Assembly (NCBI GenBank): GCA_030841085.1
Contig: JAVEDP010000022.1
Coordinates: 1 to 64,000 of the forward strand
From: Pyrinomonadaceae bacterium
Lineage (GTDB): Bacteria; Acidobacteriota; Blastocatellia; Pyrinomonadales; Pyrinomonadaceae
DNA: 64,000 nt
Reading direction: 5' to 3'
The translations under genes and the position numbers were made by a program. The notes under the pieces are model-generated. The model was given only the letters and a program-made list of their open reading frames with translations, was not told where the DNA came from and searched no databases. Position 1 is the stretch's first letter; each line of letters opens with the position of its first letter. Below are positions 11,782-61,851 of this stretch, in pieces.

Positions 11782-12480
11782 ATGATTCTCAAATGTATCC
11801 TCGCAGTCGCGTTTGCGGCGGCCCTCGTTGGCCTTGGTATCGTGCCTCTTTTAAAAAATCGTCAAAGCAATAGCCCCGCTCAATCCGTACAAGCGAAGTC
11901 CCTTAAAGAAGTCGCTCAGCGGACTAAGGCTGAGGGAAGACAAGCAGTAGAGCTACCCGGTCCTATCGGTGACTTTCCCGGCGAAGATATGGATATCGAC
12001 GAAGCGCTTCGAGACTATACCGTTGTAGTCGCCGAACCTCTTACCAGCAAAAGCTATTTGATTGGCGACTATCGCATTAACACCTGGTATAGATTCAGAA
12101 TCATTGACACGATTTCCAGGAGAGACGCGATCTTTTGTTATACCTGTCCTCAGGTACCTGATGCGCCCGCAGACCTTCCGTCGCTAAGTGCTGATGAATT
12201 CTTTCTCCCCAGGGGCGGCGGTACCGTGACTCTAGATGGTGTTGCAGTGACGATGGGCAATCCTAACTTACCTTCATTTGAAAGCGGCAAACGGTATTTG
12301 CTTATTCTGAAGTTAACATCCTCCGGTGTGGCAATCCTAGGCGCAGGGCCAACCGGTGTTTTCCAAACATCCGATAACGAACACCTCGAACCGTTCGTTA
12401 AGAATGACCGGCGCATGCACTCTGAAATGAGCGAACGTTTTAACCTTAAGTTGTCTCGGCTTAAGGCCCACATGAAATAA
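11782..12480 (+). CDS. Exported CxxC protein, second copy
   Basis: The start at 11782 has GGAAGGA upstream and gives a signal peptide (MILKCILAVAFAAALVGLG); the frame extends to 11707 without support. The 232-residue product shares with the 10877 protein an ordered set of motifs: a KEVA/EMAKAK helix, VVVAEP, NTWYRFRIID, CYTC, DEFFLP, GGGTVTLDG and KRYLLIL. The conserved CxxC pair suggests a disulfide or a redox partner of the thioredoxin-like protein at 8485. These look like a tandem duplication. Function is unknown. Confidence 0.7.
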   Translation: MILKCILAVAFAAALVGLGIVPLLKNRQSNSPAQSVQAKSLKEVAQRTKAEGRQAVELPGPIGDFPGEDMDIDEALRDYTVVVAEPLTSKSYLIGDYRINTWYRFRIIDTISRRDAIFCYTCPQVPDAPADLPSLSADEFFLPRGGGTVTLDGVAVTMGNPNLPSFESGKRYLLILKLTSSGVAILGAGPTGVFQTSDNEHLEPFVKNDRRMHSEMSERFNLKLSRLKAHMK

Positions 12481-12540
12481 ATAGCTTCGGAACAAAAAAA
12501 TATGCGCTCACAACTGCGAAATCTCGCGCCGTGGAAATTG

Positions 12541-12690
12541 TTTCTTGTGACTCTCATTGTTCTCGGCGCAAACCTCAAGCGCGGTCGTGTTGCCGGTGCG
12601 CTGCGATACTAAACGCCAAATTGAGCGATGCCCGCCGAAAAAAGTTCGTAGCCGCTGGTCCATTGCCGGCTGCCTAATACTCCTGGTGGG
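12541..12690 (+). pseudogene. Decayed fragment resembling the 3' end of opcA
   Basis: Within the 12481-12809 gap, 12562-12600 aligns with opcA 8120-8160: about 31 of 39 bases match with a two-base gap, including TTGCCGGTGCGC in full. Translated, GANLKRGR-LPVR matches GSNVQRGRVLPVR of OpcA. Weaker similarity continues to about 12690 (VAA near the end). It is in the same orientation as opcA and closes the accessory island that begins right behind opcA. The alignment was done by eye and the outer limits are soft. Confidence 0.5.
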
Positions 12691-12809
12691 TCCACATTCT
12701 TGCGCGGCTTCACGTGTGTTTGTTATAGTTCGAGTCTGAAAATCTCCAATTCAATATGTTAACCAGCCCGGCCCCGGAGGCTGTGGCTTCCCTAGAAAGG
12801 ACTTTTGTT

Positions 12810-13277
12810 ATGGCAAACGATGATTATCGACGTGACTCTGGCGACAGCGTTTCCACTCGGCTCACCTACCTCTTGATTGGCGGCGGCATTGGCGCCGTTA
12901 TCGCTCTGCTTTTTGCTCCCAAATCGGGACAGGAACTGCGCGGAGACATTGCTGACGCGACGCGCAAGGGCATTGACAAATCGCGCGAGGCTGCCCAACA
13001 AGTGGGCGAACGCGCCGGCGAGTATTACGACGCAACGCGTGAGCGCGCGACTGAACTCTACTCGCAAGCAAGCGAGAAAGCTTCCGATCTCTATACGCAA
13101 GCGTCCAGCAAGGTTGGCGAGGTAGCGCAGACTGCGCGGGAAACAGCGACGCGCCAAACCAGCACGGTGGCGGCAGCGATCGACGCGGGCAAAAAGGCTT
13201 ACCAGGAAGAGAAGCGAAAGACGGAAATGTCCGGCCGGATTGAAGCAGCGCCGAAGTACACCGAAAAAGCGAACTGA
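12810..13277 (+). CDS. YtxH-domain protein
   Basis: A 155-residue protein; the ATG at 12810 is preceded by AGAAAGGA. The N-terminus has the YtxH-type glycine-rich membrane span (LTYLLIGGGIGAVIALLFAP) followed by KSGQELRGDI. The rest is a long amphipathic Ala/Glu/Arg helix with repeated AxExAxxLYxQAS units, probably a coiled coil lying in the cytoplasm. The family is linked to general stress in Firmicutes, with no defined activity. A DUF948-like protein follows, a common neighbour. Confidence 0.8.
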   Translation: MANDDYRRDSGDSVSTRLTYLLIGGGIGAVIALLFAPKSGQELRGDIADATRKGIDKSREAAQQVGERAGEYYDATRERATELYSQASEKASDLYTQASSKVGEVAQTARETATRQTSTVAAAIDAGKKAYQEEKRKTEMSGRIEAAPKYTEKAN

Positions 13278-13279
13278 AG

Positions 13280-13388
13280 CATTGCCGATTGGCGATTGCC
13301 CGATTGCCGATTGGTCTTTAGCTGAACAGGCAATGTTGGAGCGCAAGCTCTCATCTGAAAATCGGAAATCGGCAATGGGAAATTGAAA
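13280..13388. repeat. Inverted pair of short tandem repeats (GATTGCC / GGCAATC type)
   Basis: The left arm at about 13280-13315 repeats CGATTGCC-like units. The right arm at about 13358-13388 repeats the complement (AATCGGAAATCGGCAATGG). Together they can form an imperfect hairpin around a loop of roughly 40 bases. The same unit family reappears inside the TPP riboswitch at about 58490-58570. Confidence 0.7.
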
Positions 13389-13961
13389 ATGTCCACGCTT
13401 GCCCTGCAAATAAATCCTAACGATCCGATGTTCTGGGTGATGGTGGTGATCGCGTTGTCGTTCATCATCATCGCCGTGGCCATGATTGCGATTGCGGTCT
13501 TTGTTAATCGCGCCGTGAAGTCGGTGACTCGCCTCGAACTAAAACTCGAGCCGTTGATCGAGCGCGTTTCCGTGATCAGCGAACAGGGCAAACAAATCGC
13601 GGTGCAGGGCAAGCAAATAGCCGAACAGTTCAATGCTGTTTCGGGTCATCTCTCCACGGCTACCATGAACCTTTCCGAATCGTTGGCGATCATAAAAGAC
13701 GAGGTCGGCGAACTAAAGGACCTGGTCAGCGAGACAGCGGGCGAAGCGCGCGACAAGGTTGAACTCGTCAGCCGTACCATTGACCGGACCCACGGTCAGA
13801 TAGTTACCACGACGGATTTCATTCAGCGCCGGGTGGTTGAGCCGGCTCGCGAGATCGCCGCGATTATGGCGGGCTTTCGGCGCGGCCTCGAGGTGCTTGT
13901 GGCGCCGTTGCCAAAGCCCATCAATCAAACTTACGGAGAGGATGAGATGTTTATTGGCTGA
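13389..13961 (+). CDS. DUF948-like membrane protein with coiled coil
   Basis: A 190-residue protein with one N-terminal membrane span (MFWVMVVIALSFIIIAVAMI, running on into AIAVFV), then a long helical region with heptad character (LEPLIERVSVISEQGKQIAV onward). This matches DUF948-type proteins, whose function is undefined. I use the ATG at 13389; a TTG two codons earlier is also in frame. The upstream repeat element runs right up to the start and leaves no ribosome site, so expression may rely on read-through from the YtxH gene. A terminator follows at 13987. Confidence 0.7.
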   Translation: MSTLALQINPNDPMFWVMVVIALSFIIIAVAMIAIAVFVNRAVKSVTRLELKLEPLIERVSVISEQGKQIAVQGKQIAEQFNAVSGHLSTATMNLSESLAIIKDEVGELKDLVSETAGEARDKVELVSRTIDRTHGQIVTTTDFIQRRVVEPAREIAAIMAGFRRGLEVLVAPLPKPINQTYGEDEMFIG

Positions 13962-13986
13962 TTGCGGTTCAACGCTGAGATACAGG

Positions 13987-14024
13987 CCCGAACCATCATC
14001 CGAGCGGATCTGGTTCGGGTTTTT
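13987..14024 (+). terminator. Intrinsic terminator
   Basis: Arms CCCGAACCA (13987-13995) and TGGTTCGGG (14011-14019) are followed directly by TTTTT. It is placed to end the YtxH/DUF948-like transcript. Confidence 0.8.
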
Positions 14025-14026
14025 AG

Positions 14027-14166
14027 TTTCCGCGCTCTGTAGGAGCGCAATGTTTATAGCTCAATTTCTCTCCAATCGCCTTGCGTTCATCAGGAGCGCG
14101 GCGCTCCTGATGAACGCAAAGTTCTAAGTGAACTAAATGCTATAAACATTGCGTCCCTCTGGGACT
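14027..14166. repeat. REPIN-like element with ATGTTTATAG heads
   Basis: Two inverted copies of ATGTTTATAG (14050-14059 and complement 14140-14149) each sit next to a short outer hairpin (GCGCTC-tgtag-GAGCGC on the left, GTCCC-tctg-GGGAC on the right). Between them is a perfect 19-bp palindrome arm pair, 14081-14099 and 14101-14119, around a single G. The element at 17283 has the same plan with different stem sequences. Confidence 0.75.
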
Positions 14167-14240
14167 GAACACGCGGTTCTTATTTTGATCACCGCAACAG
14201 TCAACTGTTAGTATTCTTGGTCCGCTGAATATCGACGCTT

Positions 14241-17222
14241 ATGTCTACTGAAACGCCACTCGATCTAAAAAAGACTATCAACCTGCCGAAGACCGGGTTT
14301 TCTCAAAAGGCAAATCTGGCCCAGTCGGAACCTGCCCGTTTGAAAAAATGGTCGGAAATAAATCTGTATCAGTTGATTCGCCAGGCGCGCGCCGGCGCCG
14401 ACAAGTTTATCCTGCACGACGGACCACCATACGCGAATGCCGACATCCATCTCGGCACCGCGATGAACAAAATCCTTAAAGACTTCGTCCTTAAGTCGCG
14501 CAGCATGATGGGCCATGACGCTCCCTACGTTCCTGGTTACGACTGTCATGGGTTGCCAATTGAGCTGTACGTTGATCGCAAACTCGGCGCCAAGAAAGCG
14601 AACATGCCGGCAGTTGCTATTCGCCGCGCCTGTCGCGAACACGCGGCCCAGGCGCTGAAACGACAGACGCGCGATTTTCAACGGTTGGGCATTCTTGGTG
14701 AGTGGGACAATCCGTACCTGACGATGTCCAACCATTACGAAGCGGAAACGGCGCGACTGTTTGGACGCTTCGTTGAGCGCGGCTACGTTTACAAAGGAGC
14801 GCGGCCGGTCTACTGGTGCATTCACGATCAAACGGCGCTCGCCGAGGCCGAGGTTGAATATCATCAGCACACCAGCCCATCGGTCTATGTAAAGTTTCCG
14901 CTCGCCAGCGATCCTGCGCTCATCGATCCGGCACTAGCCGGTCGCAAAGTATTCGTGCTGATTTGGACCACGACGCCATGGACGCTGCCTGCAAATCTGG
15001 GCATCACTGTCCATCCGGATTATCAATATTCCGCGTTTGAGAATGGCGACGAAGTTTACATTGTGGCCAGTGAATTGCTCGACGCCGTCGTCGAAAAATG
15101 TGAGTTGCGAAAAGGGCGAGACGGCGAGTCGCAACCGCCGAAAGTCCTGGCGCGGTTTCCTGGCGCGAGGCTGGATCGCCTGGAGTGCCGGCACCCGTGG
15201 ATTGATCGCCGGTCGCTGCTGATGGTTGGCGAACACGTCACCCTCGGTGGCGAAGCTGATGCCGAAACTGAACTCGACGTTAAAGACGCTCGCGAGAAAC
15301 AGTCATCGAGCAAAGCAGGCACCGGCGCCGTGCACACGGCGCCCGGTCATGGCCACGACGATTTTGTTATCGGCAAGCGCTACGGTCTGGAAATCTATTG
15401 CCCGGTCGATCACGCGGGCCACTTTACGCCTGAGGTGGAACACTTCGCGGGTCAAAGTGTGTTCGACGCGAACCCAAAAATTGTTGAGTTCATGCGCGAG
15501 CGCGGCGTGTTGTTGTTCACCGAAAGCTTCAGCCACCGCTATCCGCATTGTTGGCGCTGCAAGAATCCGGTGATCTTTCGCGCCACGCCACAATGGTTTA
15601 TCTCGATGGACCAGGCTGTCGGCGCTGTAGTTGAAACGATTGAGAAAGACGAAGATGGTCGCGACCGCAGCAACTTCACGGAAAATTTTTCTGAAGGCGA
15701 AACGTCTTTGCGCGCCGCGGCCCTGCGCGAGATCGAACGCGTCAAATGGTTTCCGTCATGGGGCGAAATACGAATGCGCAACATGCTGAAAGGGCGGCCT
15801 GACTGGTGCGTTTCGCGGCAGCGGGTGTGGGGAGTTTCGATTCCCGTTTTTTATTGCGCCAAATGCAGCGAAGCCGTCGCCGAACCCGCTGTGATCAATC
15901 ACGTTGCCGACATTTTCGAACGCGAATCTTCCGATGCCTGGTTTATAAAAGAAGCGCGCGAGTTGTTGCCTGCGGGTTACGAATGCAAGCAATGCGGTGC
16001 CGCCGAATGGACCAAGGAAACCGACATTCTGGACGTCTGGTTCGACAGTGGCTCGTCGTCTGTTGCGGTTTTGGAGAGCCGCCCAGAATTGCGTTGGCCG
16101 GCAGATGTTTATCTGGAAGGCGGCGATCAGTTTCGCGGATGGTTCAATTCGTCCTTGATGGTCGGGATCGCGGCGCATGATCGCGCGCCCTACAAAGCTG
16201 TCATCACCCACGGCTGGACAGTCGATGCACAAGGCAAAGAGATGCACAAGTCGGGCGGCAATGCCGTGCCTCCTGACGAAGTGATTAAGGAATCTGGCGC
16301 CGACATTCTGCGGTTGTGGTGTGCGTCGTCGAATTATTTCGATGACATGCGTTCGTCGAAAGAAATACTTCAGCGGGTCACCGATGGCTATCGCAAACTT
16401 CGCAACACGGCGCGTTATGCGCTTGGCAATCTTCATGGATTCGATCCAGCTCGCGACAGCGTGGCGCACGAGGAGATGCAGGAAGTCGATCGTTGGGCGC
16501 TGGCTGAGCTCGATGCAGTCATAAAAACGGTGCGCGCCGCGTTCGACATCTACGAATTTCACACTGCTTATCATGCGCTCTATCGTTTCTGTACGGTCAC
16601 GCTGTCGGCGCGTTATTTCGATATTCTGAAAGACCGGCTGTACACCTTCGCGCCACGTCATCCGGCGCGCCGGGCCGCACAGACCGCGCTTGCTCGCATC
16701 GCGGATGCATTGGCGCGCATGCTCGCGCCCCTGTTGGTTTTTACTGCCGATGAGATTTGGGAAAACCTGCCCGCCGATAGCGCGCGGCTTCAGTCTGTGC
16801 ATCTCGCACTGCTTCCCGAAGCGAGCGATGTAATGGATGAGGAGTTGGCCTCAAACTGGAAACGATTGTTTGAGATGCGCGAAGACGTTTTGCAAACGTT
16901 GGAAGAAGCACGGATAGCAAAAGTAATCGGCAGTTCACTCGACGCGCGTGTTGAGATCGCCGCGACTGGCGCCAGCTATGAATTGCTAGATCGGTATCGC
17001 AACGAGCTGCGTTATATCTTCATTGTGTCGCAGGTTGAAGTAACGCGATCGGATGAAGGTGCCGATGGATTCGTAGTGAAAGTCTTACCGGCGGAAGGCG
17101 CGAAATGCGAACGCTGCTGGAACTATTCAACGCGCGTCGGTGAGTCTGAAAAGTATCCGAGCGTGTGCGAACGTTGCGTTGCGGCGTTGGATGAGATCGA
17201 ACAGGAGTCGCCGCGAGAGTAA
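14241..17222 (+). CDS. ileS: Isoleucyl-tRNA synthetase
   Basis: A 993-residue class I synthetase that charges tRNA-Ile, full length for the family. The HIGH-type signature is in PYANADIHLGTAMNK (about residue 70), the KMSKS-type loop is EMHKSGGNAVPPDE (about residue 667), and a C-terminal zinc site is visible in CERCWNYSTRVGESEKYP and VCERC (about 957-980). The ILDVWFDSGSSS block near residue 598 is also typical. No T-box leader is visible; the spacer upstream holds the REPIN-like element. lspA and lgt follow on the same strand, a frequent grouping. Confidence 0.97.
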   Translation: MSTETPLDLKKTINLPKTGFSQKANLAQSEPARLKKWSEINLYQLIRQARAGADKFILHDGPPYANADIHLGTAMNKILKDFVLKSRSMMGHDAPYVPGYDCHGLPIELYVDRKLGAKKANMPAVAIRRACREHAAQALKRQTRDFQRLGILGEWDNPYLTMSNHYEAETARLFGRFVERGYVYKGARPVYWCIHDQTALAEAEVEYHQHTSPSVYVKFPLASDPALIDPALAGRKVFVLIWTTTPWTLPANLGITVHPDYQYSAFENGDEVYIVASELLDAVVEKCELRKGRDGESQPPKVLARFPGARLDRLECRHPWIDRRSLLMVGEHVTLGGEADAETELDVKDAREKQSSSKAGTGAVHTAPGHGHDDFVIGKRYGLEIYCPVDHAGHFTPEVEHFAGQSVFDANPKIVEFMRERGVLLFTESFSHRYPHCWRCKNPVIFRATPQWFISMDQAVGAVVETIEKDEDGRDRSNFTENFSEGETSLRAAALREIERVKWFPSWGEIRMRNMLKGRPDWCVSRQRVWGVSIPVFYCAKCSEAVAEPAVINHVADIFERESSDAWFIKEARELLPAGYECKQCGAAEWTKETDILDVWFDSGSSSVAVLESRPELRWPADVYLEGGDQFRGWFNSSLMVGIAAHDRAPYKAVITHGWTVDAQGKEMHKSGGNAVPPDEVIKESGADILRLWCASSNYFDDMRSSKEILQRVTDGYRKLRNTARYALGNLHGFDPARDSVAHEEMQEVDRWALAELDAVIKTVRAAFDIYEFHTAYHALYRFCTVTLSARYFDILKDRLYTFAPRHPARRAAQTALARIADALARMLAPLLVFTADEIWENLPADSARLQSVHLALLPEASDVMDEELASNWKRLFEMREDVLQTLEEARIAKVIGSSLDARVEIAATGASYELLDRYRNELRYIFIVSQVEVTRSDEGADGFVVKVLPAEGAKCERCWNYSTRVGESEKYPSVCERCVAALDEIEQESPRE

Positions 17223-34585: not shown

Positions 34586-35458
34586 ATGCAATCGACTTTG
34601 GAAATTCAAACACAGAATGTGGGCGTGGCGCCGGGCGTCTTGTCAAAGGTTGACGAGGCGCCGGTAGTCATCTCGTTGGACCACATTCACAAGACCTACA
34701 CGATGGGCGATGTCGAAGTGCACGCGCTACGCGGCATTTCACTTGAAATCAAACAGGGCGAGTTCGTCGCAATCATGGGCACCTCAGGCTCAGGCAAATC
34801 GACGACGATGAACATCATCGGTTGTCTCGACCGGCCAACGAAGGGACATTACTTTCTCGACGGCGAGGACCTGTCCCAACTTTCGAAAGATCAGCGCGCC
34901 GACATTCGCAATAAAAAGTTGGGTTTTGTCTTCCAGGGTTTCAATCTGCTGTCGCGCACTTCGGCATTGGAAAATGTTGAGCTGCCAATGCTTTATGCAG
35001 GTGTCGAAACTTCAGAGCGCCATCGCCGGTCGATGGCGGCATTGGCTGCAGTGGGGCTCGCGGGACGAGAAAAGAATCATCCGAACCAGTTATCCGGCGG
35101 ACAACAACAACGCGTGGCTATCGCTCGTTCCTTAGTGAACGATCCGGCGCTGATCCTTGCTGACGAGCCAACCGGAAATTTGGATTCGCGCACCTCGGTC
35201 GAAGTGATGGAAATTTTTCAACGGCTGAATCGTGAACGCGGCATGACGCTGATCCTTGTCACGCACGAACCGGACATTGCTGATTATGCCGACCGCGTGG
35301 TCGTGTTCAAAGACGGAAAAATTAAGAGCGACTACCGAATCGAATCACCGCGCAACGCAGCCGAAGAGTTAAAGCTATTGCCTGCCGTTGATTTTGAAGA
35401 TGACGATGACGACAGCGAAACAGTGGTCAACGAAGTAGCGGAACAGAAGGAAGCATGA
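34586..35458 (+). CDS. macB: MacB-type ABC transporter ATPase
   Basis: A 290-residue ATPase of the LolD/MacB class. Walker A reads GTSGSGKST, the signature [15 protein letters not shown], and Walker [14 protein letters not shown], with the class-specific [14 protein letters not shown] segment. The C-terminus is very acidic ([10 protein letters not shown]). In canonical MacB the ATPase and permease are one chain; here they are separate genes overlapping as ATGA (35455-35458). Confidence 0.92.
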
Positions 35459-36678
35459 ACTTATTAATGATCATTCGCGTGGCGTTTCGCGCGCTGGTGA
35501 GAAACAAGATGCGCGCGGCGTTGACGATGCTGGGCATCATAATTGGTGTTTCGGCAGTCATCGCCATGGTCAGTATTGGCCAGGGAGCGCAGCAGTCTGT
35601 TCAGGAACAAATCGCGAGCATCGGCACCAACCTGCTTTTCGTAAGTGCCGGCGCACAAAACGTTGGCGGTGTTCGCACAGGTACCGGAGATACGGGTACG
35701 AATACGCTCACCGTCGAAGATTTGGACGCCATCAAACGCGAAGTGCCAAGCGTCTCGATGGTGACGCCAACCGTAAACACGCGCTCACAACTGATTTTTG
35801 GCAGTCAGAATTGGAACACCCAGATTCAGGGAGTGAGTGAACAGTATCCGGACATTCGCAAATGGACTGTCCAGGACGGCAGTTTCTTTACCGACGCTGA
35901 CGTGCGCACAGCCGGGCGCGTGATCGTAGTCGGGCAAACCATCGCTGACAATTTATTTCCCGGAACATCTGCGGTGGGACAAACTGTGCGCGTCAAGGAA
36001 TTGCCTTTCCGCGTCGTCGGCGTGATGGCGCGCAAGGGCCAGGACCAACAGGGTCGCGATCAAGACGATACCGCGTTTGCTCCGTACACTACGGTGCAAA
36101 AGAAAATCCTCGGCAGCCCACGCGTGCAGGTAGCGTATGTTTCGGCGATATCCGCGGATGCAACCTACACTGCGCAGGTGCAGATTGGTCAGTTGCTGCG
36201 ACAGCGCCACAAATTAGGGCCGCAGGACGCGGATGATTTTTCAGTGCGAAATATGAGTGACATTGCAGATGCAGCCAACCAAACAAACAGCATCATGACG
36301 ATGTTGCTGGCCAGCATCGCCAGCGTTTCATTACTCGTCGGCGGCATCGGCATCATGAATATCATGTTGGTTTCCGTGACCGAACGAACACGCGAAATCG
36401 GAATTCGCATGGCGATTGGCGCGCGTTCTTCCGCGGTGCGAACTCAGTTTCTAATCGAGTCAGTGGTGTTGAGTTTGACGGGAGGCCTGATCGGAGTCTT
36501 GCTCGGCTTGGGCGTTTCGCTGCTGATCCCATCGCTGCTGGGTTGGCCCACGGCTGTCTCAACTGCTGCAGTTATAGGTTCCGTAATTTTCTCGGCGGCG
36601 GTGGGAATCTTCTTCGGCTACTATCCCGCGCGCAAGGCTGCGGCGCTGGATCCGATCGACGCGTTGCGGTACGAGTAA
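35455..36678 (+). CDS. MacB-type ABC transporter permease
   Basis: A 407-residue permease with the MacB/FtsX layout: N-terminal span (MRAALTMLGIIIGVSAVIA), a large periplasmic domain, then three C-terminal spans (ASIASVSLLVGGIGIMNIML, VVLSLTGGLIGVLLGLGVS, AAVIGSVIFSAAVGIFFGYY) and the usual end ALDPIDALRYE. It should pair with the preceding ATPase and MacA to export peptides, toxins or lipids. Its last 30 bases and the repeat that follows recur at 37305-37393. Confidence 0.9.
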   Translation: MNLLMIIRVAFRALVRNKMRAALTMLGIIIGVSAVIAMVSIGQGAQQSVQEQIASIGTNLLFVSAGAQNVGGVRTGTGDTGTNTLTVEDLDAIKREVPSVSMVTPTVNTRSQLIFGSQNWNTQIQGVSEQYPDIRKWTVQDGSFFTDADVRTAGRVIVVGQTIADNLFPGTSAVGQTVRVKELPFRVVGVMARKGQDQQGRDQDDTAFAPYTTVQKKILGSPRVQVAYVSAISADATYTAQVQIGQLLRQRHKLGPQDADDFSVRNMSDIADAANQTNSIMTMLLASIASVSLLVGGIGIMNIMLVSVTERTREIGIRMAIGARSSAVRTQFLIESVVLSLTGGLIGVLLGLGVSLLIPSLLGWPTAVSTAAVIGSVIFSAAVGIFFGYYPARKAAALDPIDALRYE

Positions 36679-36911: not shown

Positions 36912-37193
36912 ATGCGCACTTTGAGGAATCCCGAAACAAACGCAATTCCAGACTCGCTCGTTGAGCAGGGGGCAGTTTTGTATGGCACTCAACTGCAAGC
37001 TGCGCTCGAGAGTCAGCACTCTGGAGAATTTGTCGCCGTTGACCCCTTTAGCGCGCGCTATTTTCTCGGTCAAACAGCAACTGCCGCACTTGTAGCCGCT
37101 CGGAATGCAATGCCCGACACCCAGTTCTTTCTCACCCGAGTAGGCAGTGACTCAGCCCACAAAATTGGCGGCCATGCCAAACGAATCCGGTAA
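36912..37193 (+). CDS. Small protein paired with a clan AA aspartic-protease gene
   Basis: A 93-residue protein with GAGGAAG before the ATG. The order VEQGAVLYGTQLQAALESQH, GEFVAVDPFSARYFLG, then AALVAARNAMPDTQFFLTRVG, matches a short family often encoded directly before small retropepsin-like proteases, possibly as toxin-antitoxin-like pairs; that role is not proven. The protease gene overlaps from 37174. The pair sits between the macB permease gene and the duplicate of its 3' end. Confidence 0.6.
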   Translation: MRTLRNPETNAIPDSLVEQGAVLYGTQLQAALESQHSGEFVAVDPFSARYFLGQTATAALVAARNAMPDTQFFLTRVGSDSAHKIGGHAKRIR

Positions 37194-37500
37194 AGTTAAT
37201 CTATTTAGAGAAGCCCTAATTGAAGTCAAATTTTCCGGCGGCGCATCAATCGAATGCGTAGTGGACACAGGATTTGACGGAGGATTAATGCTGCCGCGAA
37301 CTCTGATCCCATCGATGCGTTGCGGTACGAATAGCCCGTCAGTAAGAAACAGAAACTTTATCATTCGTCATTTGACATTTCTCATTTGTCATTTACTAGG
37401 GAAGGACTCGGTCGAGGTTTCAGACAAGGCGTACTTTTCAGGAAGGTTACGGCCAACTGAATGGTGGAAGAATTCGACGTCGTTTTCCTAAATGACAAAT
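37174..37500 (+). pseudogene. Broken clan AA aspartic-protease-like gene
   Basis: From the ATG at 37174 the product reads normally to IECVVDTGFDGGLMLPRTL, with the catalytic DTG of retropepsin-like proteases. At 37305 this gives way to 30 bases equal to the macB 3' end (26 of 30 match), then a CATTT-type tandem repeat to about 37395. After it, DSVEVSDKAYFSG and, one frame away, VEEFDVVFLND look like the protease C-terminus. So the gene seems interrupted by a macB-tail-plus-repeat insert, and the protein as read is unlikely to work. Confidence 0.6.
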
Positions 37501-42797: not shown

Positions 42798-44831
42798 ATG
42801 AGTTCCGACAAGGTCCCACAGCTATCTGAAAAAGTCAGTTTCAAGGGCCGCATTCTTTTTCTAACCGCAGACACGTCGCTTATCAGGCAGCAACTGGAAG
42901 CGCAGGGCGACGAACGCGAGCGAATTGAATCCCAACTCGCCACGCGCCTGGCGAACGACGATCTGCCGTTGATGAGCAACATCTCGACCGACGAGATCAC
43001 GCCGGGTTGGGTTTGTTTTTATTACGACGAAACGCTTGGTCAATATGTTTACGTCGGCATGCGCGACGGCGCGGTGAAGAAAGACGAAGTGAAGCAGGGC
43101 GGCTTTGCCGTTGTCGTTTCCGGTTTGTCCAAAGGCTGTGGCTCATCGCGCGAGACGGCGCCATACGCCGAAAAGTGGGCGGGAATTCAACTGGTCATCG
43201 CAAAAAGCATCGAAAAGATTTACGGCCAAAACTCGCAAAATATCGGGCTGCTGACCTCGAATGATTTTGGCCTGGTCCAACGCATTCGCAGCGGCGAAGA
43301 AATTCCGCTAAGCGAGTTTACTGACGGACTTGATCCGATTGCGCAGGCTATTGTCGAGCATGGTGGGTTGTTCAACTACAACAAGGCGCGGCTCGCCGGG
43401 CAGGTTTCACCGCCGCCTTTGGAAACAAAAGCGCGGCCGATGACTATCGTCGAAAAGATCATCGCCCGCCATGCGTTTGTGACTGCCGGCAAGATCGGTG
43501 TTGAGGCAGTGAAGCCCGGCGATGCTTTGTTTGCCGTCGCCGATGTGCGCTTTTCGCATGAGTACGTCACGCCGATGGCTGAGTCGTTACTGAAACAGGC
43601 GCTTGGCCCAGGCGCGCGGGTAACGGAACCGGAATCAGTTTTTGCTTTCCGTGATCATCTGACTTTTCTTGGCCGCGTGATGTCGCAAAAGCACCGCGAC
43701 ATGGGCCTGCTGGAAAAAGCCGAAGGCCTCGCCACCACGCAGGAAGATTTCACTACGAAGCAGGGCATACGGCTCTATGGCGAAAATCCTGAAGGCGGCT
43801 CGGAGGCAATCTGCCATAACGCCGTGGTCGAGGACCTCGCCTTGCCGGGCCAGATTGTGATCGGCACCGATTCGCACACCTGCATGGCGGGCGTGCTCGG
43901 CTGTTTTGCTTTTGGCGTCGGCTCGACTGACATGGCCAATGCCTGGTACGCGAAAGACATTCGCATTCGCGTGCCGGAAACTGTGCGCTACGTTTTCATA
44001 GGACGAAAGCGTTCTGATGTCGCCGCAAAAGATGTGATGCTTTACATCCTGGCGAGCGACTACATGAAGACCAGCAAAGGCATCGCCAAAGTTCTCGAGT
44101 TTGCGGGCGAAGACTTAAAGAACTGGCCCATGGACGAACGCGCCACACTTACGAACATGTCGGTTGAAGCCGGCGGCACGACCGGCATCATCGAGCCGGA
44201 CGAAGTGACACTCGATTACATCGTGAAGATGCGCGGACTGGATGCCGACGAAGTACGCCGCGGCTTTACCTACAGCGATCTTGACGCTGAATACGCCGCC
44301 GTGTTTGAAATCAATCTGGATGAGATTCGGCCGATGGTGGCCACGCCCGGCGATCCGCGCAATGGAATTCCTATCGCTGAACTTGCCGAAGAAGTGCGCA
44401 TCGATGCGGCGTATGGCGGCAGTTGCACTGGCGGAAAGATGGCGGACATGGACATGTACGCCGAGGTGTTGCAGAACGCGCTTGATCAAGGCAAGCGCGT
44501 CGCGCCGGGAGTTCATCTCTATCTTCAGTTTGGTTCGCAGAAGATCAAACAATACGCTCGCGATCGAGGCTACCTCGAAATCTTTGAACGCGCCGGCGCG
44601 GAACTGATCGATCCCAGTTGCGGCGCTTGCATCAACGCCGGACCCGGCGCTTCGCCAAGCGCTGAAACAGTGACCGTCAGCGCGCAGAATAGAAACTTCC
44701 CCGGCCGCAGTGGCCCAGGCAAACTTTATCTCGCTTCACCTTATGTCGTTGCTGCGTCCGCGATTGCCGGCAAGATCGTCGAACCGTTCGAGTTTCTGCC
44801 TGAGCGGGAAGAAGAGTTGGTGCGCGCCTAA
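42798..44831 (+). CDS. Fused LeuD-LeuC aconitase-family hydro-lyase
   Basis: A 677-residue fusion. Residues 1-200 are the small swivel domain (SNISTDEITPGWVCF, LSKGCGSSRETAP), residues 215-677 the large [4Fe-4S] domain, so the order is reversed relative to aconitase. Cluster and active-site motifs: VIGTDSHTCMAGVLG, YGGSCTGGKMADM and DPSCGACINAGPGA hold the three cluster cysteines. The likely reaction is 3-isopropylmalate dehydration in leucine synthesis, but homoaconitase or aconitase use is also possible. A decayed copy of its 3' end lies at 45303-45416 beyond a toxin-antitoxin pair. Confidence 0.87.
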   Translation: MSSDKVPQLSEKVSFKGRILFLTADTSLIRQQLEAQGDERERIESQLATRLANDDLPLMSNISTDEITPGWVCFYYDETLGQYVYVGMRDGAVKKDEVKQGGFAVVVSGLSKGCGSSRETAPYAEKWAGIQLVIAKSIEKIYGQNSQNIGLLTSNDFGLVQRIRSGEEIPLSEFTDGLDPIAQAIVEHGGLFNYNKARLAGQVSPPPLETKARPMTIVEKIIARHAFVTAGKIGVEAVKPGDALFAVADVRFSHEYVTPMAESLLKQALGPGARVTEPESVFAFRDHLTFLGRVMSQKHRDMGLLEKAEGLATTQEDFTTKQGIRLYGENPEGGSEAICHNAVVEDLALPGQIVIGTDSHTCMAGVLGCFAFGVGSTDMANAWYAKDIRIRVPETVRYVFIGRKRSDVAAKDVMLYILASDYMKTSKGIAKVLEFAGEDLKNWPMDERATLTNMSVEAGGTTGIIEPDEVTLDYIVKMRGLDADEVRRGFTYSDLDAEYAAVFEINLDEIRPMVATPGDPRNGIPIAELAEEVRIDAAYGGSCTGGKMADMDMYAEVLQNALDQGKRVAPGVHLYLQFGSQKIKQYARDRGYLEIFERAGAELIDPSCGACINAGPGASPSAETVTVSAQNRNFPGRSGPGKLYLASPYVVAASAIAGKIVEPFEFLPEREEELVRA

Positions 44832-44839
44832 AGCCCGAG

Positions 44840-45097
44840 ATGAGTAGAACTCGCTATCAAATCGAATATGGAAATACAGCTCTCGACGACTTGGACGGAA
44901 TTCCATCGAAGCAACGCGCCCAGATTCTTCGCAAGATCAGCCGACTCCAACAAGGCCTTCATGGAGACATAAAACGGTTGCGTGAAGCTGACTTCGCATA
45001 TCGTCTACGGATGGGTGACTATCGGATATTGTTCGACGTGGAAGATCCCGTTATCGTGATTCGTCGAATTGGACACAGGAAGAACATTTATGAGTAG
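44840..45097 (+). CDS. RelE/ParE-family toxin
   Basis: An 85-residue protein with the RelE-like fold: YQIEYGNTALDDLDGIPSKQ, IKRLREADFAYRLRMGDYRI and LFDVEDPVIVIRRIGHRKNIY. The conserved basic and aromatic residues (R, Y and the final HRxxxY) are present. RelE toxins cut mRNA in the ribosome. It starts eight bases behind leuDC, and the antitoxin gene overlaps its end by eight bases. The toxin gene comes first. Confidence 0.85.
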   Translation: MSRTRYQIEYGNTALDDLDGIPSKQRAQILRKISRLQQGLHGDIKRLREADFAYRLRMGDYRILFDVEDPVIVIRRIGHRKNIYE

Positions 45098-45275
45098 AAC
45101 CATCGAGAGAGAACTTAGCAAGACAATCAGAGAGAAACGAGCGCAACTGCAAGTGATCCGTGAAGAGGTCGAGAACTTAATCGACTACCTAGAGCTGTTG
45201 GAGGCCCGGGCTCGCGACAAAAACAAACCTACAACCGCGCATTCCGAGGTAATAAAGCGTTTTCGGGTAAAGTGA
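45090..45275 (+). CDS. Antitoxin of the RelE-type pair
   Basis: A 61-residue protein from the ATG at 45090. It is helical and highly charged (RTIERELSKTIREKRAQLQV, then NLIDYLELLEARARDK) without an obvious DNA-binding motif. Overlap with the toxin gene and size fit an antitoxin that wraps the toxin. The decayed leuDC tail follows at 45303. Confidence 0.7.
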   Translation: MSRTIERELSKTIREKRAQLQVIREEVENLIDYLELLEARARDKNKPTTAHSEVIKRFRVK

Positions 45276-45302
45276 TCATTCTTTCCTTCTCACCGGCCAG
45301 TT

Positions 45303-45416
45303 AAACGTTAAGCTTCATCTCACCTTAAGGTTGTTGGCCGCTTCCGAAATCGCCAGCAGGATTGTCGAACCGTTTCAGTTTCTGTTAGCGCGAATAAGAG
45401 CTGTTGGAGGGTTAAA
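45303..45416 (+). pseudogene. Decayed duplicate of the leuDC 3' end
   Basis: Translated in one frame, LLAASEIASRIVEPFQFLLAR matches the end of the 42798 protein (VVAASAIAGKIVEPFEFLPER) at about two thirds of positions. At DNA level, 45303-45416 aligns with 44721-44831 almost end to end with a few indels. It has the same orientation, no start codon, and is frameshifted in part. Confidence 0.8.
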
Positions 45417-45436
45417 GATTGTTCCTTCGAATCTGA

Positions 45437-45952
45437 TTAGGTGACGTTGTCCGTTAGGTTTCCTGAAGCTCCGGCAGCCAGAAGTCGCGCGACCAGTCGA
45501 TGCATACGGCTGAAGTCGATTGGTTTGGTCAAGTAACCGGAAACGCCCGCGTCGTAAGCCGCCCGCTGGAAACCTTCGGTGCCGAAAGCGGTCACGGCGA
45601 TTACCGGTATTTCTCGCAGAGCTTCCTGCTCGCGAATTCGGCGCGTGGCACCCAACCCATCCAACTGCGGCATGCTGACGTCCATCAGAATTAAGTTAGG
45701 CAGCGTATATGCCGCGACACTCACTGCTTCCTCGCCGTTAGTTGCAGTCACCACCCTGTAACCCTGCTGCTGAAGATCCAAACTGAGCATCGCCACGTGG
45801 TCCGCCGAATCGTCAACTACCAAAATCACAAACTCTCTCGCGCTGTCACGATCCATGGTGACATTAATGCCACCGCTTGGTGACGCTGCACCTTCGCCTG
45901 GCGGATCAATCTCCGGAAGCGCCGTGGTTGCCATAGGATCTTTGAATTCCAT
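45437..45952 (-). CDS. Single-domain response regulator
   Basis: About 171 residues from an ATG at 45952 (a TTG at 46057 is in frame but improbable). The C-terminal 120 residues are a CheY-like receiver: FVILVVDDSADHVAMLSLDL with the acidic pair, LPNLILMDVSMPQLDG with the phospho-acceptor Asp, VIAVTAFG and GYLTKPID with the conserved Lys. There is no output domain. No histidine kinase gene is near, so it must be served from elsewhere. Confidence 0.85.
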   Translation of the reverse strand: MEFKDPMATTALPEIDPPGEGAASPSGGINVTMDRDSAREFVILVVDDSADHVAMLSLDLQQQGYRVVTATNGEEAVSVAAYTLPNLILMDVSMPQLDGLGATRRIREQEALREIPVIAVTAFGTEGFQRAAYDAGVSGYLTKPIDFSRMHRLVARLLAAGASGNLTDNVT

Positions 45953-46100
45953 TGAGGGGATTATAGGATACAACTTGAATAGTTCCCCACCGCTTCGTGG
46001 ATCAGTGACACTAAAAACATGAACGCTCGAGTCCGTGCTTAGCGGACAACTGACCAATAGCCCGGCAGTTCACTGCGGGGATAAGGTCGGAAGAAATTTA

Positions 46101-58652: not shown

Positions 58653-60733
<2,081 letters not shown>

Positions 60734-60752: not shown

Positions 60753-60950
60753 ATGAGTACCCAAGAGCTTATCAACAAAGAAATCGAGGCTTTGCCCGAG
60801 CCTTTGCAGCGTGAAGTTTATGACTTCGCACGATTTCTTCGATTGAAGTCAAACGGGGAGTTTCAGCTGCTGCAGGAATTCGAATCATGGGAAGCGGCGA
60901 GTGACGAGGACTCGCTGAGGCTGGAACGCAGCATTGCAGAGGTAGAGTAA
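60753..60950 (+). CDS. DUF2281-like antitoxin
   Basis: A 65-residue protein from the ATG at 60753. It begins STQELINKEIEALPEPLQRE, VYDFARFL, the pattern of DUF2281/AbrB-less antitoxins, and ends in an acidic helix (DEDSLRLERSIAEVE). Its stop is immediately followed by the toxin ATG. It opens a toxin-antitoxin cluster just behind thiC. Confidence 0.78.
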   Translation: MSTQELINKEIEALPEPLQREVYDFARFLRLKSNGEFQLLQEFESWEAASDEDSLRLERSIAEVE

Positions 60951-61289
60951 ATGGCCCGCGGCGACATTTTGCTTGTTAGTCTCCCTTCAAGTGATCGCCG
61001 TGAGCAGAGTGGCCGCCGACCAGCCGTAGCGGTGCAAACCGATCAGGCGGGCGAGCCCATGTTAATGGTCGCACCCGTTACCTCAAATCTCACGGCACTT
61101 CGGTTCGCGTTCTCAATACGAGTCGAACCGTCCTCGGAGAATGGCCTTACCGTCCCTTCAGTTGTGATGGTTTTTCAGATGAGAGCGATTGATAAGGCGC
61201 GAATCATCCGTAAGATCGGTCGCGTATCACAGGCCGACTTGGCGCGCATCGACGCGGAAATATGGCAAATGCTCAAACCGCTTGATTGA
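60951..61289 (+). CDS. MazF/PemK-family mRNA interferase toxin
   Basis: A 112-residue toxin with the MazF fold: ARGDILLVSLPSSDRREQSG, RRPAVAVQTD, MVAPVTSNL, and VVMVFQMRAIDKARIIRKIG. The key Arg and Thr/Ser residues of the active site look present. MazF toxins cut mRNA at short sequences. With the preceding small gene it forms an intact pair. Confidence 0.87.
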   Translation: MARGDILLVSLPSSDRREQSGRRPAVAVQTDQAGEPMLMVAPVTSNLTALRFAFSIRVEPSSENGLTVPSVVMVFQMRAIDKARIIRKIGRVSQADLARIDAEIWQMLKPLD

Positions 61290-61315: not shown

Positions 61316-61455
61316 ACTCTCGAATGTGCGGCCAACAACGTGATCGTGATTCTTGAGGTCTTTCGCAAGACTACTCAACAAACACCGCTGCGGTAATCGA
61401 GAATTGCAAGCGCCGGCTTAAGTATTATGAAGCAACGAAATCATCGAGGGGTTAA
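61316..61455 (+). pseudogene. Remnant of a HigB-like (phage Gp49-like) toxin
   Basis: Reading in one frame gives NNVIVILEVFRKTTQQTPLR, then after a frameshift VIENCKRRLKYYEAT. Together these match the C-terminus of HigB/Gp49-like toxins (LHxFxKKTxxTPxxxIxxAxxRL). No start or upstream half is visible. It precedes the intact XRE gene at 61460, its probable former antitoxin partner. Confidence 0.55.
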
Positions 61456-61459
61456 AAGC

Positions 61460-61789
61460 ATGAAAGCGAGTAAGCGCAAGAAGCTGGAGGCTGCTGGATG
61501 GAAAGTTGGATCGGCGCGGGAGTTTCTCGAACTGTCAGATGAGGAAGCCGCGTTCGTTGAACTCAAGCTGACTTTGAGCGCAAGCTTGAAAGAGTGCCGC
61601 ACCAGTCAGGGTCTCTCGCAGAGCGAGTTGGCAAAACGCCTTCGTTCCAGCCAATCACGTGTGGCCAAAATGGAAGCCAGCGACCCGGCGGTTTCGCTCG
61701 ATCTTCTGATTCGCGCGCTCTTCGCCGCCGGCGCCAAAAGAAAAGACATCGCCCGAGCGATCGCGAAGAGTGAATCTTTGGCGGCGTAG
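61460..61789 (+). CDS. XRE-family HigA-like antitoxin, apparently orphaned
   Basis: A 109-residue protein from the ATG at 61460. The N-terminus is basic (MKASKRKKLEAAGWKVGSA) and residues 55-95 form a helix-turn-helix: ECRTSQGLSQSELAKRLRSS, QSRVAKMEAS. This is the usual plan for HigA antitoxins partnered with Gp49-like toxins. The matching toxin upstream is only a remnant, so this may be a solitary repressor. Confidence 0.8.
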   Translation: MKASKRKKLEAAGWKVGSAREFLELSDEEAAFVELKLTLSASLKECRTSQGLSQSELAKRLRSSQSRVAKMEASDPAVSLDLLIRALFAAGAKRKDIARAIAKSESLAA

Positions 61790-61812
61790 CATCGCGGCCA
61801 ACACTTTTGCTC

Positions 61813-61851
61813 CTGGCCCGCGAAATGGAAGAAAAGTCGCGCGAGTTGTTG
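61813..61851 (+). pseudogene. Decayed duplicate of the thiC 3' end
   Basis: 61813-61851 aligns with thiC 60662-60701: 34 of 39 aligned bases match with one gap. Translated, LAREMEEKSREL matches [12 protein letters not shown] of ThiC. Same orientation as thiC. It lies just behind the XRE gene and before the broken antitoxin at 61893. Confidence 0.8.

Follow-up and report, generated by a model that had tools for sequence, protein, structure and literature searches.

Duplicated gene tails around toxin-antitoxin-like pairs at a leuDC-like gene and at further loci of Pyrinomonadaceae

Chromosomal integrons hold cassettes that are bounded by attC sites and often carry toxin-antitoxin (TA) pairs, and these TA cassettes stabilise the arrays in which they lie. 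Some genomic islands integrate into the 3' ends of genes and restore them, and homology-facilitated illegitimate recombination is familiar from transformable bacteria and laboratory transformation; we know of no work that ties it to TA modules. Restriction-modification (RM) systems, for their part, reportedly insert with long target duplication, as Nobusato et al. (2000) and Furuta et al. (2010) are said to have described. In the part of PMC3031569 available here, RM systems are described as inserting with long and variable target duplications, and in the available parts of PMC2654758 and PMC3874152 the phrase stands in the reference lists only. We report the analysis of a window of 64,000 nucleotides from a Pyrinomonadaceae bacterium (contig JAVEDP010000022.1, positions 1 to 64,000, forward strand), in which the 3' end, or tail, of a leuDC-like gene is duplicated around a TA-like pair, and compare this locus with the systems just named and with related genomes.

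The window's genome, a soil Acidobacterium here called G000, comprises 4.69 Mb in 43 contigs; other G numbers denote relatives, among them the sister species G011, and L numbers denote loci. The features of the leuDC locus are these:

42798..44831, + strand: leuDC-like fusion gene, 677 amino acids, aconitase superfamily (PF00330, E 1.7e-91; PF00694, E 4.6e-11)
44715..44833, + strand: near tail copy, the gene's 3' end with its stop, from local alignment (88% DNA identity to G011 over 44600-44785)
44840..45097, + strand: toxin of the ParE/RelE family (PF05016, E 5.8e-9), with relatives 62% and 57% identical in G140 and G141
45090..45275, + strand: putative antitoxin, 61 amino acids, overlapping the toxin end (called from position and size only)
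45297..45417, + strand: far tail copy, decayed, its homology clearest from about 45311 (tail alignments, tail search and shuffles)
45437..46057, - strand: response-regulator gene, the native downstream neighbour (PF00072, E 8.8e-26; 87% DNA identity over 280 nucleotides, in the same place in G011)

The duplication of the leuDC tail around this pair is confirmed. Local alignment of 44715-44833 with 45297-45417 (match +1, mismatch -1) gives a score of 43; 1000 shuffles reach 17 at most, up to 2000 random segments of the window reach 18, and when the downstream 2.54 kb is shuffled by dinucleotides 500 times the highest score is again 17. A first-pass annotation of this DNA had placed the two tails at 44721-44831 and 45303-45416 around a RelE-type pair, which is correct to within a few bases, and had named the lack of a significant alignment as what would speak against it; the alignment in fact stands far above the shuffles. 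The rest of its description holds as well. Between the copies lie a ParE/RelE-family toxin and a small partner open reading frame (ORF) and nothing else; the near copy is in frame and terminates the gene; and the far copy is decayed, with several insertions of one or two bases upstream of the motif GTCGAACC, a 2-base deletion after it and, behind that deletion, TAG and TAA at the positions of leuDC sense codons.

The name leuDC is approximate, because matches of the gene product to the NCBIfam leuC/leuD and aconitase models fall below the curated cut-offs, and the product is best described as a predicted LeuD-LeuC-type fusion of the aconitase superfamily. The toxin stands above the curated cut-off of its profile (36.9 bits against 23). 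Its 61-residue partner matches no Pfam family and gives insignificant NCBIfam matches, and is presumably the antitoxin. The toxin ORF (44840) and the antitoxin ORF (45090) begin with the same 11 bases, ATGAGTAGAAC.

Set beside RM insertions with long target duplication, as these appear in the available part of PMC3031569, the likeness lies in a small addictive unit flanked by long direct target repeats and in a persistence that may be tied to post-segregational killing; long direct repeats of the target do flank the insert at leuDC and, as described below, at macB, thiC and ggt. The differences are that the cargo here consists mostly of TA-like pairs, that the target is a coding 3' tail, which is restored, that the tails may differ in type from the native one and that the repeats build arrays. 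As in chromosomal integrons, one small gene unit lies between successive repeats; unlike in integrons, the repeated unit is no attC site but the coding 3' end of the gene upstream, ending at or near the stop codon. The stretches read were inspected by eye, not with profiles, and no integron integrase was recognised in them. Elsewhere in G000 (contig C41, 120001-140000; L282, 1-12000) there are attC-like direct repeats, roughly a dozen at a spacing of 0.5-2 kb, and this stretch, named by eye, is probably a chromosomal integron cassette array and looks different from the tail arrays. The completion of the gene at the near end and the displaced native end at the far side are shared with islands that enter gene 3' ends, but here the insert is between a few hundred bases and about 1 kb long and has no recognised integrase, and several unrelated genes serve as targets; at the end of the leuDC element there is no integrase, only the TA-like pair between the tails. 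A homologous anchor combined with an illegitimate join, as in homology-facilitated illegitimate recombination, would likewise leave a displaced tail. Among the literature matches listed (titles and abstract openings, with subscription papers mostly missing), none concerns TA modules between duplicated gene tails or tail-bounded TA arrays, which is no proof of absence.

The most similar leuDC gene is that of G011, with 94% protein identity and a DNA identity of 0.78 in the first 200 nucleotides and 0.81-0.94 after them. Replacement of the whole gene by a foreign copy was considered and rejected, since the identity to G011 is even along the gene. In G011 the gene looks native as far as GTCGAACC, beyond which the sequence is unrelated: the G011 insert, at the same codon, carries a DUF2188 protein (PF09954, E 2.6e-28) and a 154-amino-acid ORF, and some 1.1 kb on, directly before the response-regulator gene, lies a leuDC-tail remnant with a stop, 44 of 61 bases of which equal the near tail of G000. 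Because the response-regulator gene directly follows a leuDC tail remnant in G011 too, the far copy of G000 is best read as occupying the native position. Upstream of GTCGAACC, where 21 relatives were compared, G011 is the closest to both copies (54/59 and 47/58). Substitutions between near and far copy in this part are distributed 2/3/9 over the three codon positions (9 of 14 at the third, p 0.017 against one third), and downstream of the motif 6/2/4 (4 of 12 at the third), without bias; three third-position states, noted by eye, are common to the far copy and G011 against the near copy. It is on account of this closeness to G011, of the substitution pattern and of the third-position states in common that we regard the far copy as an old congeneric tail, native by position and now decaying, which perhaps evolved in part as coding DNA. 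The first-pass annotation had proposed codon-level divergence and the grouping of the far copy, with native orthologues or with a donor, as checks. Together these gave a mixed answer, with third-position bias upstream of GTCGAACC and none downstream, and with neither copy falling with a remote donor; its interpretation as a whole is partly supported, and it foresaw neither the recurrence of the pattern nor the different insert of G011 at the same codon.

What follows leuDC differs among congeners, and its 3' end therefore appears to be a variable spot. In G005 an EcoRV-like endonuclease gene (PF09233, E 1.3e-45) comes after it and the contig ends there; G001 and G002 carry a Fic-like ORF, and further congeners a CYTH-like gene, a sigma factor or other ORFs (these identified by eye). 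At the G005 locus (L066, contig C228) no methylase is visible beside the EcoRV-like gene before the contig end. The idea that leuDC tails are a common cassette site was rejected, for no other clear orphan copy was found in 119 genomes of the family: the tail search returned the far copy at E 0.027, strong matches in short frames in G076 (C349) and G007 (C552), and weak ones at E >0.3. When 22 leuDC loci were compared with 100 shuffles each, only the tail copy of G000 stood out, the score of L026 (20) equalling its shuffle maximum and that of L075 (16) lying one above its own; the G011 remnant scores 15 in this test, does not stand out and is visible only in pairwise alignment.

The same layout recurs in G000. 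For every gene of 120 amino acids or more, the final 120 bp were compared with the 2.5 kb that follow, in a first sample of 345 genes made up of the window and 20 stretches of 20 kb, which includes the leuDC finding and so is not neutral. Its nine matches comprise three false ORFs over a repetitive gene, two tandem paralogues and four tail-only duplications, at leuDC, thiC, ggt and macB, all four with TA-like genes between the copies; one tail-TA-tail case of the sample lies outside the window. The features within the window are:

35455..36678, + strand: macB-type permease gene (named by eye), with a second tail copy downstream
36912..37193, + strand: ORF lying between the two macB tails; another short ORF comes after it and is cut by the tail copy
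37287..37351, + strand: macB tail copy with stop and 3' flank (score reached by 0 of 500 shuffles)
58706..60733, + strand: thiC gene (PF01964, E 9.3e-186), with a second tail copy downstream
60753..61289, + strand: TA pair after thiC, a DUF2281 protein and a PemK/MazF-like toxin (PF10047, E 3.9e-6; PF02452, E 1.6e-24)
61427..61789, + strand: helix-turn-helix (antitoxin-like) ORF before the thiC tail copy (PF01381, E 4.1e-9)
61812..61851, + strand: thiC tail copy (score reached by 0 of 500 shuffles)

Codon differences in the macB tail copy lie mainly at third positions (by eye). The first ORF between the macB tails has no Pfam match and the second is aspartyl-peptidase-like below the cut-off (E 0.0076), so the two may be called TA-like on weak profile support. 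From 61881 on, the window is collinear with the region after thiC in G011. At ggt, elsewhere in G000, DUF5615 (PF18480, E 4.9e-13) and DUF433 (PF04255, E 3.4e-24) ORFs lie between the tails, and HicA/HicB-like ORFs (partial queries, below the cut-off) follow the second tail.

Two of these genes allow a comparison with relatives that leuDC itself does not offer. The two ggt tails of G000 have one common counterpart in G011 (L353, 3851-3900), an empty site, and from there the G011 sequence goes straight on into the HicA/HicB region found behind the far tail of G000. Accordingly, the 650-bp TA stretch was either inserted in G000 or lost in G011, with about 50 bp of tail doubled. The ThiC C-terminus, sorted by eye in 12 congeneric genomes, is of one type (A) in nine and of another (B) in G000, G005 and G014. 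In G005 the gene bears type B, and a type-A tail stands 900-1043 bp downstream behind ORFs of 76 and 251 amino acids (no Pfam match). In comparison with G000 and G014 the scores are 113 and 97 for the near tail and only 43 and 49 for the far one; against the type-A genomes it is the far tail that scores higher, in 9 of 9. Given these opposed affinities, the two tails that flank the G005 insert belong to different lineages. A younger-looking case appears to be that of G012, in which a PDDEXK_3 ORF (PF13366, E 4.8e-41) lies between thiC and a 46-nucleotide tail copy with three mismatches that extends beyond the stop.

Longer series of tails were met through the control scan of ParE-type loci described below, one further flanked locus of which opened onto an Eco57I-like RM gene in G029. 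There the RM tail occurs six times within 3.6 kb, with one pair between successive tails: DUF6883/DUF4926, a small ORF with PIN, ParE/Phd-like, again a small ORF with PIN, and HicB-like/HicA-like (the Phd-like match is below its cut-off; the HicA-like and small ORFs were named by eye). The RM tail is present in 23 of the 119 family genomes and clustered, in 2-6 copies, in seven, the six besides G029 having clusters of 2-4 tails; the inserts in the family include PIN, PemK/MazF, YoeB and UPF0175 proteins. In a draw across the phylum 31 of 396 genomes match the tail. The four tails of G485 flank AAA_13, Hypoth_Ymh and Schlafen-AlbA_2 proteins; those of G183, two in number, enclose a 281-amino-acid ORF without a Pfam match. 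Many further copies are single and in short frames, and TA- or defence-like genes, not counted, neighbour some of 38 RM-tail loci, which include ordinary RM genes. Directly after RM-tail copies in G152 (L225, near 1403) and G434 (L238, near 398) stand ORFs, identified by eye, which we take to be REP-associated tyrosine transposase-like. A search for such arrays outside Acidobacteriota was negative: at least two clear tails occur at 5 of 41 loci taken from named genomes, all of Acidobacteria/Pyrinomonadaceae and on the same contigs as the arrays of G029, G025, G079, G020 and G077. Two short Ignavibacteria contigs have partial RM-tail repeats, and at L186 (6001-6144, Ignavibacteriae) an orphan RM tail lies between two ORFs with no RM gene seen upstream.

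The tails of the arrays differ from one another mainly at silent sites. Over 16 neighbouring pairs from eight arrays the differences fall 33/15/106 on the three codon positions (106 of 154 at the third), which corresponds to 95.5 synonymous and 58.5 non-synonymous steps, and in 13 of the 16 pairs no more than 3 of 300 random placements attain the observed synonymous share, the L110 pair and both L113 pairs having no synonymous excess over random. Because pairs share copies, the p of 2.6e-19 obtained by pooling is only indicative. The sixth tail of L077, the truncated copy of L111 and the weaker copies of L224 and L229 were left out of the count. The two G183 tails encode identical protein over 21 compared codons at 83% DNA identity. 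Since the differences are mainly synonymous, most of the divergence among array tails took place while they were coding, which is expected of tails that come from different hosts and not of useless duplicates made in situ.

Repeats at gene ends are not in themselves the signal. The scan was extended to a second sample (288 genes) and to G017 (319) and G014 (283), which gave 5, 3 and 5 matches beside the nine of the first. The second sample yielded a repeated gene (2), an attC-like region (2, unchecked singly) and a 26-nucleotide repeat (1); G017, two paralogues and one tail-only case; G014, a tandem duplication (3), a paralogue (1) and a dispersed repeat (1). The G014 duplication (L357, about 12100-15000, contig C34) copies the tail of a desaturase-like gene together with the neighbouring gene of 174 amino acids and is of ordinary origin. 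A mirror test, in which gene starts were compared with upstream DNA, gave 4/337, 11/279, 2/301 and 6/265, so that gene-end repeats (22/1235) are not commoner than gene-start repeats (23/1182). In eight of these 23, read by eye without profiles, there is no TA-like pair between the copies; in G014 (L364, 15865, contig C34) a decayed copy of a gene start precedes its gene by about 900 bp, and by eye there is no TA-like cargo. Tail repeats as a general feature were therefore rejected, most matches having other origins and gene-start repeats being equally frequent; the signal lies in the cargo and not in how often repeats occur, and the cases behind it are few. That all TA loci are flanked by repeats was rejected too, at 1 of 26 ParE/PIN loci in G000 and 2 among the 16 ParE-type family loci scanned as a control (15 of them testable).

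We favour, with a confidence only a little better than even, the view that recombination anchored in a homologous tail brings TA modules to gene 3' ends and displaces the native tail. Incoming DNA from a related cell would carry a homologous gene tail followed by a TA module and would recombine with the chromosome through that tail, after which the gene would end with the near tail. The other end would join illegitimately inside or just before the recipient's tail, or would be closed through a circle, and the native tail would be left behind the module to decay, the gene never having been broken. The two tails, as direct repeats, would make deletion by tail-tail recombination easy, and addiction by the TA pair would select against that deletion; repeated events at one gene would give alternating arrays of tails and TA modules, as at the Eco57I-like RM genes. 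What the data show, each at the loci named above, is the duplication of tails, TA-like cargo, the empty site at ggt, two phylogenetically distinct tails at thiC of G005 and a coding type of divergence among array tails. The homologous anchoring, a horizontal origin of the leuDC cassette from a donor and addiction as the reason for its retention are what we infer, and the data leave undecided whether the near leuDC tail arrived with the module.

Several observations weigh against this account. No donor, no recombination intermediate and no TA activity has been observed; both leuDC copies look native, and leuDC by itself shows no donor tail; nor is there an empty-site relative for leuDC, G011 carrying an insert of its own there. 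At ggt, states common to both tails of G000 and missing from G011 are what duplication in situ would produce. Tail-only duplications with TA-like cargo number 4/345, 0/288, 0/319 and 0/283 in the four gene sets, and tail-only repeats without such cargo exist, for example L357 and the G017 case (L312, 395-2344, contig C27), in which a 69-nucleotide tail copy lies 95 bp behind a 649-amino-acid gene with no TA-like ORF. Among the 26 ParE/PIN loci of G000 the leuDC one alone is tail-flanked (L126, at a contig end, is untestable).

The strongest rival is a long target duplication in situ, in which the module comes from elsewhere and the recipient's own tail is duplicated, so that both tails are native and the useless one decays. 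As a general explanation we think it rather unlikely, and for leuDC, ggt and the thiC of G012 it is a fair rival: both leuDC copies are closest to G011, the two ggt tails have states in common that G011 lacks, and the 46-nucleotide G012 copy, with its three mismatches, passes the stop. But in G005 the two thiC tails are of different types and cannot both be copies of the recipient's target, and the array tails, differing mostly by synonymous changes, do not look like useless copies.

An improbable, though not negligible, explanation is a site-specific recombinase that targets gene 3' ends, with an element that restores the gene end as do some islands targeted to tRNA genes or guaA. By eye, the homology of the RM array copies stops right after I-V/I-E codons; the leuDC break of G011 lies at ATCGTCGAACC, near the RM motif ATTGTCGAA; and boundaries near AT(C/T)GTCGAA, in both G011 leuDC and the Pyrinomonadaceae RM tails, hint at such a recombinase. 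The other cargo at the leuDC 3' ends of G011, G005, G001 and G002 would fit such an enzyme as well. Yet reading the inserts by eye, without profiles, revealed no recombinase gene, no common core is seen among the leuDC, macB, thiC, ggt and RM targets, and the boundary DNA at the RM gene differs in G485 and G183.

That leuDC or its end was simply duplicated in tandem, with a deletion and a separate TA insertion coming later, is very improbable: such events do leave tails, as L357 illustrates, but the far copy holds only the last 120 bp or so of leuDC, alignment found no leuDC remnants upstream of it, and the pattern recurs with unrelated TA cargo. Chance similarity is refuted by scores far above the shuffles, and assembly artefact, for which nothing speaks beyond the draft status of the genomes, has next to no probability, as several assemblies share this architecture.

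How chromosomal TA modules move, most of them without a transposase, is an old question, and under the homology-anchored acquisition that we favour the layout described here points to a possible route by which TA pairs may enter chromosomes without breaking genes. A gene tail, a TA pair, a second tail and an empty site in a sister genome make a scar that can be read from sequence and tested genome by genome. It may also offer a reason for where TA modules are found, as insertion at a 3' end that restores the gene would be cheap, and addiction would protect an insert between direct repeats that might otherwise recombine it away. If the tails in the cassettes come from other lineages, core genes would have their C-termini swapped as a side effect. 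More tentatively, and as a possibility we would sooner doubt than assert, Acidobacteriota and perhaps other bacteria may run a recombinase-free, integron-like economy of TA and defence cassettes with the ordinary 3' end of a gene as the recombination site, in which each cassette would carry the gene tail of its last host, insert by homology, restore the frame and be held by addiction, and in which repeated use would build tail-bounded arrays such as the six-tail array of G029.

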